From positions 1-34,909 of the forward strand of contig JALOOQ010000004.1 in assembly GCA_025454305.1 (NCBI GenBank): DNA of 34,909 nt, given 5' to 3'. The DNA comes from Cyanobium sp. Prado107 (GTDB lineage Bacteria > Cyanobacteriota > Cyanobacteriia > PCC-6307 > Cyanobiaceae). The notes beneath the pieces are model-generated. The model was given only the letters and a program-made list of their open reading frames with translations, searched no databases and was not told where the DNA came from. A program made the translations under genes and the position numbers. Positions 8,126-14,905 of this stretch are shown piece by piece. Each line of letters begins with the position of its first letter. Position 1 is the first letter of the stretch.

Positions 8126-9738
<1,613 letters not shown>

Positions 9739-9750
9739 GGAACTGAGCCG

Positions 9751-10704
9751 ATGGCGAACCTCAAGGAAATCCGCGACCGCATCAGTTCGGTCAAGAACAC
9801 TCGGAAGATCACCGAGGCCATGCGCCTCGTGGCGGCAGCCAAGGTGCGCCGTGCCCAGGAACAGGTGCTGCGCAGCCGGCCCTTCGCTGACCGCCTGGCG
9901 CGGGTGCTGGAAAACCTTCAGTCCCGCATCGGCTTCACCGATCTCGATGTGCCCCTGCTCACCGATCGCCCCGTCGAGTGCATCACCCTGCTGGCGGTGA
10001 CCGGCGACCGTGGCCTCTGCGGGGGCTACAACGCCAACATCATCAAGCGCACCGAGCAGCGTCACGCCGAACTCTCTGGCCAGGGCTTCAAGGTGGATCT
10101 GGTGCTGATCGGGCGAAAGGCGATCAGCTATTTCCAGAACCGTTCTGACACCTACACAGTGCGGGCCACCTTCACGGGCCTCGAGCAGGTGCCGAATGCC
10201 GAGGAGGCCCGTGGCATCGCCAACGAAATCCTTGCCGAATTTCTCTCCGGATCCTGTGATCGTGTGGAGATCATCTACACCAAGTTCATCAACCTGGTGA
10301 GCTCCCAGCCGGTGATTCAGACCCTGCTCCCCCTCGATCCTCAGGGAATCGCGGCGCCGGAGGATGAGATCTTCCGACTCACCACCCGCGAAGGCCGCCT
10401 CGTCGTGGAGCCTGGAACGCAGCCGAATCCGGAGCCCAACCTCCCCTCGGACATCGTCTTCGAGCAGAGCCCCGAGCAACTGCTCGATGCGCTGCTGCCC
10501 CTCTATGTCCAGAACCAGCTGCTGCGCTCCCTCCAGGAGGCGGCCGCATCGGAGCTGGCCAGCCGGATGACGGCCATGAACAACGCCAGCGACAACGCCA
10601 AGGCGTTGGCCAAGACCCTCACCCTCGACTACAACAAGGCCCGCCAGGCGGCCATCACCCAGGAGATCCTGGAGGTGGTGGGCGGAGCCTCGGCGATGGC
10701 CTGA
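9751..10704 (+). CDS. atpG: F0F1 ATP synthase subunit gamma
   Basis: The central rotor shaft, 317 aa. The N-terminal helix ([20 protein letters not shown]) and the C-terminal helix (ending [18 protein letters not shown]) are classical. Between them lies an extra segment at about residues 198-232, which matches the insertion found in cyanobacterial and chloroplast gamma but lacks the paired cysteines of the redox-regulated plant form. The only cysteines are elsewhere (78, 90, 169). It is the last atp gene of this operon; a 73-bp palindrome follows. Confidence 0.97.
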
Positions 10705-11094
10705 GCTTCCGGCTCTCGCCCCTCCCAGGACAACCTGAATCCCCGGGTTTTTCTCGGCGGTCAACGCACGCTGTGCGTGCGACACCGCCTCCGAAAAACC
10801 CGGGTATTCGTGCTGCAAGGGCCTCGTGTCAGTGGCCAGTGTTCCGTGGGGCTGGCGGTACCAACGGGGCAATCACGACGGGAAGCAGCAAGCACGGATT
10901 GAATTGTCCGGGAGAATTTTCGGGAGAAGCTCACAACGCACTGCCGTTCTGCAGGCAGGAACCCGGCACTGCTGTCTTCAGCACCTGTCCCTGCCGAACC
11001 TCGTCTCCTGGATGCTGCGGCGACCGACCGAATCACCAGCGGCGGGTGCCCGCGCTGGGAAGCTGGAGCTGATGGCCCCGCCGGATTCCAGCCC
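10705..11094. other. 390-nt intergenic region after the atp operon
   Basis: This gap holds a large palindrome at 10737-10809 (separate entry). The remaining 285 bases up to the oxygenase-like gene show no RNA gene or coding pattern I trust; frames open across it continue into other genes out of phase. A short inverted repeat GCGGG/CCCGC lies at about 11042-11053. The promoter of the next gene is presumably here, but I could not assign it. Confidence 0.5.
10737..10809. repeat. 73-bp imperfect palindrome downstream of the gamma-subunit gene
   Basis: The arms run GAAT-c-CCCGGGTTTTTC...GGCGGT (10737-10761) and ACCGCC...GAAAAACCCGGG-t-ATTC (10784-10809). CCCGGGTTTTTC/GAAAAACCCGGG is an uninterrupted pairing, and an inner stem CGCACG/CGTGCG (10765-10770, 10776-10781) closes a 5-nt loop. 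The whole can fold into one long hairpin on either strand. It begins 32 bases past the gamma stop, so it may end the atp transcript. However, the T-run is inside the 5' arm rather than after the stem, unlike a standard intrinsic terminator. A small dispersed palindromic element is an alternative. Confidence 0.75.
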
Positions 11095-11841
11095 ATGCCA
11101 CTGCCCCTGCCTGTGCCGGGACCATTGCAGATCCAGCCGCTGTTTCCAGTGGCGCTGGGGCAGGTCCAGCTGCGGCCCGATCCGCTGGAGCTGGCGGAGC
11201 AGGTGCAGGCCCTGCATGCACTGCGCGGCGACGCGGACGGCAATCCCGATCCCGGCTGTGCCTGGACCGGCGACCTCAACGGCGTCTGGCAACTGCATCT
11301 CCATCCCACGTTCGCGCCCCTCATCGCCACGCTCACCGGTCACGCCCGCTGCTACCTGGAGGAACTGGGCTTTGATCGCCGCCGTGTGGTGCTGCACCTC
11401 CAGCGCTGCTGGCCGGTGCTCAGCGAACCGGGCCAGGTGGTGGGGCGCCACCACCACCCCAACGCTCACCTCAGCGCCATTTATTACCTCAACGGCGATG
11501 GCAGCGGCCGCTCGGGGTGTCTGCGCCTGTGGCCGCCCCGCCAGCTCAACGAACTGGTTCCGGGTCTGGGGGCGGGTCATGGCGGACCCCTGACCCCCAC
11601 CTGCTGGACGGAGCCCTGGCTGGATGTGGCGCCGCGGGCGGGGTTGCTGCTGCTGTTCCCCTCCTGCATCGACCATGCTGTGCTGCCCAACGACGATCCT
11701 GATGATCTGCGCTGCTCACTGAGCATCGATTTCATGCTCACGGCGCCTCCCACCCCTGAAGGCCAGGCGCCTCCGGAATATCTCGCTCCCCATCCCGGCC
11801 AGTGGCAGGCGATCACGGAGGATGGGGTGCAGCCGGCCTGA
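11095..11841 (+). CDS. Putative 2OG-Fe(II) oxygenase-like protein
   Basis: The 248-aa product has a histidine-rich stretch RHHHPNAHLSAIYYLNGD (118-135), a region typical of TIGR02466-like putative 2-oxoglutarate/Fe(II) oxygenases. Later FPSCIDHAVLPND (188-200) supplies a probable distal metal-ligand histidine (His194), and LRCSLSIDF (205-213) the arginine that would bind 2-oxoglutarate (Arg206). These are the elements of a double-stranded beta-helix fold. The assignment is from pattern memory; the substrate is unknown. ATG 11095 has no obvious ribosome binding site. A ferredoxin gene starts 38 bases after its stop on the same strand, so the two may be co-expressed. Confidence 0.7.
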   Translation: MPLPLPVPGPLQIQPLFPVALGQVQLRPDPLELAEQVQALHALRGDADGNPDPGCAWTGDLNGVWQLHLHPTFAPLIATLTGHARCYLEELGFDRRRVVLHLQRCWPVLSEPGQVVGRHHHPNAHLSAIYYLNGDGSGRSGCLRLWPPRQLNELVPGLGAGHGGPLTPTCWTEPWLDVAPRAGLLLLFPSCIDHAVLPNDDPDDLRCSLSIDFMLTAPPTPEGQAPPEYLAPHPGQWQAITEDGVQPA

Positions 11842-11879
11842 AGCGGCCGGGGCGGCTCCGAGTCCTTCCTCAATCATCC

Positions 11880-12203
11880 ATGCGTGCCAGCTTCACCGTC
11901 GTCGCCACCCTCGACGGCGCCACCCATACCTTCCCCTGCCGCGAGGACCAGACCGTCCTGTCCGCAGCGGAGGAGGCCGGCGTGCCCCTGCCCAGTTCCT
12001 GCTGTTCGGGGGTGTGCACCACCTGCGCCGCCCTGATCAGCGAGGGCACGGTGCACCAGCCCGACGCCATGGGCGTGAAGGCGGAACTGCAGCAGCAGGG
12101 CTATGCCCTGCTGTGCGTGGCCTACCCCCGCAGTGACCTCAAGTTCCAGGCCGGCATGGAGGATGCCCTCTACGAAGCCCAGTTCGGTCAGTTCCAGAAG
12201 TGA
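11880..12203 (+). CDS. [2Fe-2S] plant-type ferredoxin
   Basis: A 107-aa electron carrier. Cysteines 41, 46, 49 and 79 fit the plant-type [2Fe-2S] pattern C-x4-C-x2-C-x29-C, within SSCCSGVCTTCAAL and LLCVAYP. The C-terminal tail after the cluster is somewhat extended and ends AQFGQFQK. It differs from the main photosynthetic PetF in its N-terminus and tail, so it is likely a minor paralogue with special partners. The true start is the ATG at 11880; upstream frame is not conserved. Its stop overlaps the GTG start of the next small gene (GTGA, 12200-12203). Confidence 0.93.
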   Translation: MRASFTVVATLDGATHTFPCREDQTVLSAAEEAGVPLPSSCCSGVCTTCAALISEGTVHQPDAMGVKAELQQQGYALLCVAYPRSDLKFQAGMEDALYEAQFGQFQK

Positions 12204-12394
12204 GCCGGCCGTCCGGCGCTGGGGTCCTGCGGCCGGTGGTGCTGTGCTTCCAGCGTGCCCCTGGTCCCCTGCTGCCCCAGATTCAGGACGCTCTGGCTGC
12301 CCATGGCGAGCCCCTGCGCTGGGCCATCAGCGGGGTGCGCGGCGATGAGCTCCGTCTGGAGGCGGTGGTGCTGACATCAACCCCCGCGCCATGA
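12200..12394 (+). CDS. Conserved-looking 64-aa protein of unknown function
   Basis: A short frame with a GTG start overlapping the ferredoxin stop (GTGA) and a TGA stop overlapping the DUF3326 start (ATGA, 12391-12394). The precise double overlap is strong evidence that it is translated. The product has no cysteine cluster (one Cys, residue 16), no membrane segment and no signal peptide. The central part, HGEPLRWAISGVRGDELRLEAVVL, reads like a compact beta-rich fold seen in small cyanobacterial hypothetical proteins. I do not recognise a function. Composition matches the neighbours, so there is no sign of recent transfer. Confidence 0.7.
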   Translation: MSRPSGAGVLRPVVLCFQRAPGPLLPQIQDALAAHGEPLRWAISGVRGDELRLEAVVLTSTPAP

Positions 12395-13521
12395 CGTCCT
12401 CGGCCGTGCCGGCGTCCACAGACGCCCTGGCCACCGTGATGGTGGTGCCCACCGGCCTGGGCTGTGCCACCGGCGGCTATGCCGGCGACGCCCTGCCGGC
12501 AGCCCGGCTGCTGGCCGCCGCCAGCGGCTGTCTGATCACCCATCCCAACGTGGTCAACGGTGCGGCGCTCTACTGGCGCGATCCCCGCATCCACTACGTG
12601 GAGGGCTGGGCCCTCGACCGGTTCGCGGCCGGCGACCTCGATCTCCGGCCGGTGCGCGCCCAGCGGCTGGGTCTGCTGCTCGACGCCGGCATCGAGGACG
12701 ACCTGCGCCTGCGCCACCTGCAGGTGGCCGATGGCTGCCGGGCCACCCTGGGCCTGGACATCGGTCCGGTGGTGACGACCGATGCGCCCCTCGCCGTGAG
12801 TCTGGAGCGGGGACCCAGCGGCGCCAGCTGGGGCAGCCTGGGTCGGCCGGATGCCCTGCTGCGCGCCGGTGAACGGCTCCGGGCCGCCGGCGCGACGGCG
12901 ATCGCGGTGGTGGCCCGCTTGCCCGACGATCCCGGCAGCAGCGCCCTGGCGGCCTACCGCCAGGGTTCAGGTGTCGACGCCCTGGCGGGGGCCGAGGCGG
13001 TGATCAGCCACCTGCTCAGCCGCCATCTGCTGCTGCCCTGTGCCCATGCCCCAGCCCTGCAGCCGCTGGCTCTGCAGCGCGGCCTCGACCCCCGCGCCGC
13101 CGGGGAGGAGCTGGGCACCACATTCCTGCCCTGTGTGCTGGTGGGCCTGAGCCGGGCTCCTGACCTGGTGGCCAGGCCGCCGGCAGGCTGGATCAATACC
13201 CCATTGCCACACGCCCCATCCACCAGCGCCCCAGTGGATGGCCCGCTGCTGCGCAGCGAGGGGATCGGCGCCGTGGTGGCGCCGGCTGGAGCCCTCGGCG
13301 GCGAGGCGGTGCTGGCCTGCGTGGAGCGGGGTGTGCCCCTGATCGCGGTCGACAATCCCTGCGTGCTGGAGGTCACCGCCGCCGCCCTGGCCCTGGCCGA
13401 GGCCGGTGCCACGGTTCTGCCCGCGGCGGGCTACGAGGAGGCCGCCGGGCTGCTGCTGGCCCTGCGGGAGGGCATCGCCCCGGCGGCGCTGCGTCGGCCC
13501 CTGGCCCCGCTGGAGTGCTGA
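12391..13521 (+). CDS. DUF3326 family protein
   Basis: The 376-aa product matches the cyanobacterial/plastid-lineage DUF3326 family as I remember it: an N-terminal VVPTGLGCATGGYAGDA segment, the ITHPNVVNGAALYW motif, and a C-terminal nucleotide-fold-like part (GAVVAPAGALGGEAVLACVERGVPLIAVDNP). Function is not established. The glycine-rich segments suggest a ligand- or cofactor-binding site, which is inference. It is soluble by appearance, with no leader peptide. The start overlaps the stop of the 64-aa gene, so it is probably translationally coupled with it and the ferredoxin. Confidence 0.9.
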   Translation: MTSSAVPASTDALATVMVVPTGLGCATGGYAGDALPAARLLAAASGCLITHPNVVNGAALYWRDPRIHYVEGWALDRFAAGDLDLRPVRAQRLGLLLDAGIEDDLRLRHLQVADGCRATLGLDIGPVVTTDAPLAVSLERGPSGASWGSLGRPDALLRAGERLRAAGATAIAVVARLPDDPGSSALAAYRQGSGVDALAGAEAVISHLLSRHLLLPCAHAPALQPLALQRGLDPRAAGEELGTTFLPCVLVGLSRAPDLVARPPAGWINTPLPHAPSTSAPVDGPLLRSEGIGAVVAPAGALGGEAVLACVERGVPLIAVDNPCVLEVTAAALALAEAGATVLPAAGYEEAAGLLLALREGIAPAALRRPLAPLEC

Positions 13522-13544
13522 GGCCGCACGCGAGATGGGGCCTC
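13520..13544. terminator. Candidate hairpin between convergent genes
   Basis: GAGGCC (13520-13525) and GGCCTC (13539-13544) form a 6-bp stem in the 25-base gap between the DUF3326 gene and the antiporter gene, overlapping the DUF3326 stop. It could act on both converging transcripts, but there is no T-tract on either side, so this is a weak call. Confidence 0.35.
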
Positions 13545-13546
13545 GA

Positions 13547-14905
13547 TCAGCCTGCCGTCGCCGGAGCGGAAAGCAGCGATTGACGGTTGAGCACCAGCCG
13601 CAGCAGTACAGGTGCCAGGAATGTGGTGCCGATCACCATCACCAGAACCCCGGCTTCCAGGGATGGATCCAGCACGCCGGCCTGGGCACCGAGACCGAGG
13701 AAGATCAGCCCCACCTCTCCTCGGGGCAGCATGCCCAGCCCCACCACCAGCCGGTTGGTGGGTTCGGCCATGCGGTAGGTCCAGCCGGCAGCCAGCTTGG
13801 TGATGGAGGCGACGCTGAGCAGAAAGACCGCCAGCACCAGACCCTGGCGGTTCTCCGGAACCAGGGGGTTGAGCACCGAGAGGTCCATCGTGGTGCCGAT
13901 CACCACGAAGAACACCGTGGCGAACAGGGCCACCAGGGGCTTGATCGCCTCTTCCATGGCGTGGGCATGCCGGGAGCCGCTGAGGATCAATCCCGCCGCG
14001 AAGGCCCCCAGGGCGGCCTCGAGACCCACGGCCTGTGCGGTGAAGCAGGAGAGGCAGAGCACCAGAAAGGCCGCCACCACCACATCACCCGGTGCCTGCA
14101 GCCGGTCCAGGACAGCATCGAACAGAGGGGCCGCGCGGCGGCTGAGCAGCAGCGACACGGCCACGAATGCCACCGCCGCGAGCACCAGCCGCAGGATGGG
14201 CTGCAGGGCCACACTGCCGCTCCCGGCCAGGGACACCACCACCGCCAGCAGCACGATGCCGAGAATGTCGTCGAGCACGGCGGCGCCGATCACGATCTGA
14301 CCCTCGCGGCTGCGCAGCACCTTCAGCTCTCCGAACACGCTGGCGGTGATGCCGATGCTGGTGGCCGTCATCGTGGCGCCGGCGAAGACGGCGGCGATCA
14401 GCGGCACGTGGAAGATCCAGAGCAGCCCGAAGGTTCCCAGCGTCAGTGGCAGCAGCACGCCGGTGAGTGCCACCCCACCGGCCTGGAGGCCCACCGCCAT
14501 CAGCTCATCCAGCTCGCATTCCAGGCCTGTGAGGAAGAGCAGGGCGAACAGCCCGATGGTGCCGATGGACTGGAGGTTGGGGAAGGTCTCGATGTAGACA
14601 TCCCGCACGACGTCGGGGCCCACGTGGGCCAGGGAGCCCAGCAGTCCCAGGAACCAGCCGCTCACCTCGGCCTGGGTCTCGGGGGGCAGGATCAGGTGCA
14701 GGCCCGACAGGCCGATCAGGATGCCGGCCACCAGCTCACCCAGGATCGTGGGCAGGCGGAGCCGCACCATCCCCTCGGCCAAGGCGCGGGCGGCGAGGAA
14801 GATCACGAAGAACCGCGCCGCCGCGATCAGCGTTTCCGCGGTTTCGAGCTGATGGCTGCTGGCGGTCTCGCTGGCGACCGCCAGCACCGTGGAGACGATG
14901 GACAT
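13547..14905 (-). CDS. CPA2-type cation:proton antiporter (Na+/H+ exchanger family)
   Basis: A 452-aa integral membrane protein with about twelve hydrophobic helices. LPTILGELVAGILIG (51-65) is the signature early helix of the KefB/NapA-type CPA2 family, and the ion-binding Asp-Asp pair is visible in AAVLDDILGIV (Asp212-Asp213). No TrkA-N or other cytoplasmic regulatory domain follows, so it is the short, NhaS3/NapA-like form. The likely role is Na+/H+ or K+/H+ exchange for ion and pH balance; the ion is not determinable. ATG 14905 is preceded by AAGGA at suitable distance, better than the farther upstream start at 14998. It follows rlmH by 89 bases on the same strand. Confidence 0.92.
   Translation of the reverse strand: MSIVSTVLAVASETASSHQLETAETLIAAARFFVIFLAARALAEGMVRLRLPTILGELVAGILIGLSGLHLILPPETQAEVSGWFLGLLGSLAHVGPDVVRDVYIETFPNLQSIGTIGLFALLFLTGLECELDELMAVGLQAGGVALTGVLLPLTLGTFGLLWIFHVPLIAAVFAGATMTATSIGITASVFGELKVLRSREGQIVIGAAVLDDILGIVLLAVVVSLAGSGSVALQPILRLVLAAVAFVAVSLLLSRRAAPLFDAVLDRLQAPGDVVVAAFLVLCLSCFTAQAVGLEAALGAFAAGLILSGSRHAHAMEEAIKPLVALFATVFFVVIGTTMDLSVLNPLVPENRQGLVLAVFLLSVASITKLAAGWTYRMAEPTNRLVVGLGMLPRGEVGLIFLGLGAQAGVLDPSLEAGVLVMVIGTTFLAPVLLRLVLNRQSLLSAPATAG

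Follow-up and report, generated by a model that had tools for sequence, protein, structure and literature searches.

We found that a small gene and a DUF3326 gene form the durable core of a four-gene cluster in the window, the whole 34,909-nucleotide stretch of Cyanobium sp. Prado107 DNA analysed here. The cluster itself is already known, and this genome is a new instance of it; the oxygenase gene in front is a recent, lineage-specific neighbour. Across the Cyanobacteriota the DUF3326 protein is INDEPENDENCE from Fed3, the ferredoxin encoded in the cluster, and photosynthesis.

Gene organisation of the cluster

All four genes are on the forward strand. The first (11095-11841) encodes a 248-aa protein predicted to be a 2OG-Fe(II) oxygenase through profile matches (PF13759, 62.6 bits against a cut-off of 27; TIGR02466, 63.9 against 62.5). 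After a gap of exactly 38 bases (11842-11879) follow the genes for a 107-aa plant-type [2Fe-2S] ferredoxin (11880-12203), a 64-aa protein with a GTG start (12200-12394) and a 376-aa DUF3326 protein (12391-13521). The ferredoxin and small genes overlap by GTGA at 12200-12203, and the small and DUF3326 genes by ATGA at 12391-12394. The original prediction had given the same gap and overlaps and had claimed that these three genes are coupled; with both four-base overlaps exact, the coupling is supported here. The ferredoxin/small overlap was seen again in 67 of 117 loci and the small/DUF3326 overlap in 60 of 161, far above chance.

The closest genome among the loci fetched was Cyanobium sp. CH-040, with 92% identity over DUF3326. 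An Rfam scan of 9700-14000 gave no match, and no ORF matching two of the cluster's families was found as a fusion.

Linkage to DUF3326

DUF3326 loci were fetched across Cyanobacteriota and the upstream genes were classified in the 175 loci that had 1.2 kb or more of upstream sequence, an uneven sample with many Prochlorococcus and Synechococcus. The small gene, the ferredoxin and the oxygenase were all found upstream of DUF3326 in 40 loci, the small gene and the ferredoxin without the oxygenase in 75, the small gene alone in 41 and none of the three in 19. A ferredoxin adjoining DUF3326 without the small gene was found in 0 of the 175. Cumulatively, the small gene is linked in 156/175 loci, the ferredoxin in addition in 115/175 and the oxygenase as well in 40/175; from the per-class counts the linkage is therefore nested, DUF3326 then small gene then Fed3 then oxygenase. 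On the DUF3326 tree (138 loci), the minimum number of parsimony changes in linkage was 8 for the small gene, 13 for the ferredoxin and 5 for the oxygenase.

This gene-order survey had been set beforehand as a check, and the ferredoxin-small-DUF3326 order proved to be kept in many families, far beyond near relatives. The oxygenase, which the original prediction had placed in the same unit, is confined at this position to the family group of the window, the 40 loci given above.

The order itself has been published. The fed3-duf650-duf3326 arrangement is the conserved "cluster d" of the Synechocystis ferredoxin neighbourhoods, described from many cyanobacteria, among them Prochlorococcus MED4 and MIT9312 (Cassier-Chauvat & Chauvat 2014, PMC4284462). 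Cluster d and the window have a common order on one strand, ferredoxin-hypothetical-DUF3326, so the idea of an undescribed functional unit gives way to that 2014 report. In the accessible part of the paper, however, cluster d comes without an oxygenase and without a proposed function, and the account also omits the non-photosynthetic relatives and the loss of fed3. The middle gene is labelled DUF650 there; Pfam searches with six members gave no match (the window protein at E 1, five homologues at E 10), and the window's identity with cluster d stands on the order and the flanking genes.

DUF3326 without Fed3 or photosynthesis

DUF3326 is present in 288 of 292 Cyanobacteriota genomes, including families f30-f39, and PsaA/B was absent in 15/15 genomes tested from these families. 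Among 14 control genomes DUF3326 was found in one, Synechococcus elongatus, and the viral contigs contained no DUF3326 relative. The only DUF3326-less genomes among the 292 were G044 and three genomes of genus g93 (G052, G084, G132); DUF3326 can therefore be lost, as seen in g93. The g93 genomes keep a weak small-protein match though they are without DUF3326.

At four loci of the non-photosynthetic classes (L034-L037) the small gene lies directly 5' of DUF3326, and no Fed3-like ferredoxin was found beside the pair there. Around DUF3326 in the non-photosynthetic genomes we saw no shared neighbour theme. In one photosynthetic genus, three reduced genomes, which we take to resemble diatom endosymbionts, have lost or broken psaA/psaB: G147 gave no match, and G183 and G268 contained stop-filled fragments. 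Despite this, the small gene and DUF3326 are intact in all three (L016, L026, L007). For any photosynthesis-linked gene, these genomes provide a natural test of what follows the loss of photosynthesis.

Five genomes (G114, G165, G223, G276, G264) contain only the Fed1 and FdC2 types and no Fed3, and G147 has neither Fed3 nor FdC2; the small gene and DUF3326 are kept in all six. Fed3 is present and unlinked to DUF3326 in, for example, G014, G054, G056, G143 and G268. DUF3326 thus persists where Fed3 has been lost, lies elsewhere or never occurred; it does not need Fed3 as a partner, and Fed3 is probably not what drives it. Another ferredoxin might stand in for Fed3 in the Fed3-less lineages.

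Outside the cyanobacteria, the occurrence of DUF3326 in plants has one annotated potato gene as its basis (PMC13294368). A record titled Bifidobacterium breve (L114) contained a typical Synechococcus-type DUF3326 locus and is probably a mislabelled bin.

The 64-aa protein

Homologues with a PLRWAIT...VEAV core across the phylum show that the 64-aa ORF represents a real gene. Two residues, R40 and W41, do not vary among 43 aligned sequences, and the profile made from these 43 members found the family in 226 of 292 genomes, with one copy in practically every photosynthetic-class genome, linked or not. No match was found in Pfam or NCBIfam.

In the gut-type family f31 the matches are weak (E 1e-8 to 0.009). 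In non-photosynthetic genomes (L232-L234, L236, L239) the small gene directly adjoins, often with touching ends, a gene that we take to be glmS (glucosamine-6-phosphate synthase), recognised from its N-terminal sequence. The f31 small genes are probably real: each genome has a single one, its length is as expected, and it has an LRWAI core and this glmS adjacency. In two other genomes, G011 (L179) and G116 (L249), the small gene pairs with Fed3 without DUF3326. Because of the frequent glmS adjacency in gut-type genomes and these Fed3-small pairs, the small protein may have another role than one with DUF3326. It might be identical with ssr3189, described as a cyanobacterial signature protein of 55 aa (PMC2823733).

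The ferredoxin

The ligand pattern of the ferredoxin is complete (C41-X4-C46-X2-C49-X29-C79). It matched PF00111 with 66.9 bits and PDB ferredoxins down to 2.1e-20, and its TIGR02008 score of 80.9 was just below the cut-off of 81.15. Three plant-type ferredoxins were found in the window's genome. In trees of the plant-type ferredoxins from this genome and many cyanobacteria there were three groups, Fed1, FdC2/Fed2 and Fed3, and the window ferredoxin fell together with all DUF3326-linked ferredoxins in the Fed3 group (SH-aLRT 96-97 in two trees). The Fed3/Fx3 protein of Synechocystis (slr1828) is the ferredoxin of cluster d and is of the plant [2Fe-2S] type like that of the window; the name Fed3 used here rests on the cluster assignment and the three-clade tree.

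The FdC2/Viridis-k ferredoxin is the electron donor of the Mg-protoporphyrin ester cyclase, the chlorophyll cyclase (PMC8408499). An FdC2/Fed2/Viridis-k identity was considered for the window ferredoxin and rejected: that type forms another clade, the window protein's tail ends in QFGQFQK and is not the longer FdC2 C-terminal tail that follows QFGR, and a distinct FdC2-like gene (G000:C107, L212) is present in this genome. Being in the Fed3 clade, the window ferredoxin is therefore not the one serving the cyclase. The reports on fed3 (slr1828) are in conflict: it is called essential in one paper (PMC4284462), but a later one deleted it fully, and the mutant grew normally under photoautotrophic and poorly under photomixotrophic conditions (PMC8887894).

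Structure predictions

The DUF3326 protein matched PF11805 with 458.9 bits (gathering cut-off 25) over profile positions 2-337 of 337. Its model, predicted from 66 sequences, had a mean pLDDT of 92.7 and a pTM of 0.90. Comparison of the DUF3326 profile with PDB sequences gave nothing significant (best E 0.16), and Foldseek against PDB gave a best E of 3e-3 with low TM-score. The Z scores of VIA-align were as high as 9.1, for about 100-130 residues within 90-256, with matches to the LacI core, arylmalonate decarboxylase, hydantoin racemase and lumazine synthase; the PDB fold searches effectively covered residues about 63-263. The predicted fold is of a widespread Rossmann-like type, and these searches gave no clear relative for it in the PDB. 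The invariant residues are Gly, Pro, Asp, Asn, Glu, His, Tyr, Ser, Ala and Leu. There is no invariant Cys in the alignment, which makes an Fe-S cluster unlikely, and a flavin or a metal is possible.

In locus L009 the ferredoxin, small and DUF3326 genes are in one frame, and reading through the stops gave one chain of 530 residues. The alignment for this chain had 131 rows with each part on its own block; all three parts were paired in only four of these rows. AlphaFold2 predicted the chain with pLDDT 89.9 and pTM 0.68, with linkers under 50; the small protein was predicted as beta-alpha-beta-beta with pLDDT about 90. By our own rough estimate, the pTM should be about 0.65 for undocked parts and about 0.9 if all were docked. 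A complex of the three proteins, whose prediction had been proposed as a check, was thus not found with confident docking, and this weak test speaks weakly against a stable ternary complex. Docking of the small protein on DUF3326 was likewise not predicted in the read-through chain, with its four fully paired rows.

Possible functions

We give about an even chance to the explanation that DUF3326 is a housekeeping enzyme independent of Fed3 and photosynthesis, with the small protein as candidate partner and with Fed3 and the oxygenase as separable neighbours. DUF3326 would be a soluble enzyme of Rossmann-like fold without an Fe-S cluster, and the invariant D33, N53, N56, E71, D196, E202, H207, H219 and E239 may form its putative active site. 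The 64-aa protein would be a small partner or regulator in the same process, made together with DUF3326 by translational coupling; Fed3 would be a separate electron carrier co-expressed with both, and the oxygenase gene would have joined them recently as a neighbour. That DUF3326 outlives this ferredoxin and photosystem I weakens a photosynthetic-redox reading and directs attention to housekeeping metabolism, and a small family missing from the Pfam and NCBIfam copies searched becomes a concrete candidate partner of a near-universal protein. Against the explanation as a whole, there is no homologue of known function and the structural matches are middling; against the partnership, the small-DUF3326 linkage is not universal, being absent in 19/175 loci with 8 parsimony changes. 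A wider form, in which the two proteins are a phylum-wide enzyme-partner system older than oxygenic photosynthesis, kept after its loss and serving an undiscovered housekeeping reaction also in plants, is a tentative possibility.

The original prediction was that the ferredoxin may feed electrons to DUF3326, with the small protein acting as adaptor. In favour of electrons passing from Fed3 to a redox enzyme DUF3326, the three genes are tightly linked and translationally coupled in 115/175 loci, and Fed3, a plant-type [2Fe-2S] protein of the ordinary kind, can carry electrons. But DUF3326 outlasts Fed3 in several lineages and is present in classes without it, has no invariant Cys, and in the read-through chain shows a pTM near that estimated for undocked parts, and we regard this model as very improbable. 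For the small protein, partnership with DUF3326 stays plausible and the role of adaptor between the ferredoxin and DUF3326 is unlikely. The main partner of the small protein might instead be Fed3, which it could for instance stabilise or help to dock, with DUF3326 as a passenger. The Fed3-small pairs without DUF3326 in G011 and G116 fit this, together with the ferredoxin/small overlaps in 67/117 loci and the lack of any locus where the ferredoxin adjoins DUF3326 and the small gene is missing; the Fed3-less lineages, including the non-photosynthetic classes, keep the small gene mostly beside DUF3326 (41 small-only loci), which makes it improbable. It is also rather unlikely that co-expression explains everything, that is, that housekeeping genes with separate roles were grouped 3' of well-transcribed ATP synthase genes. 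The cluster does follow atpG in several families, and its linkage broke repeatedly (ferredoxin 13, small gene 8, oxygenase 5 changes), the oxygenase being clearly recent; however, the small gene and DUF3326 are neighbours again in non-photosynthetic genomes, in which the cluster does not follow atpG, and mere hitchhiking fits this poorly.

Position after the ATP synthase genes

In the window, the upstream neighbour of the cluster is the atpG ORF (ATP synthase gamma, 9751-10704, forward strand). With this atpG as query, cluster genes were found 3' of atpG in 98 loci, including L003, L021, L048, L083 and L187. Fed3, with or without the small gene and DUF3326, follows atpG in these five and in L249; as such loci include cyanobacteria far from the window's family, the link between cluster and ATP synthase genes looks old, and this suggests that the position after atpG is old.

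The gap from atpG to the cluster is only 14-16 bases in some Prochlorococcus, and the window and its close relatives have a strong hairpin between them. In the window it is a long imperfect inverted repeat 3' of atpG (10737-10809, fold z -5.6); the hairpins found at this place in the relatives differ from it but match it in strength. The repeat is probably the terminator of the ATP synthase operon, separating the atp genes from the cluster. It is a single copy in the genome and matches itself inverted at 77%.
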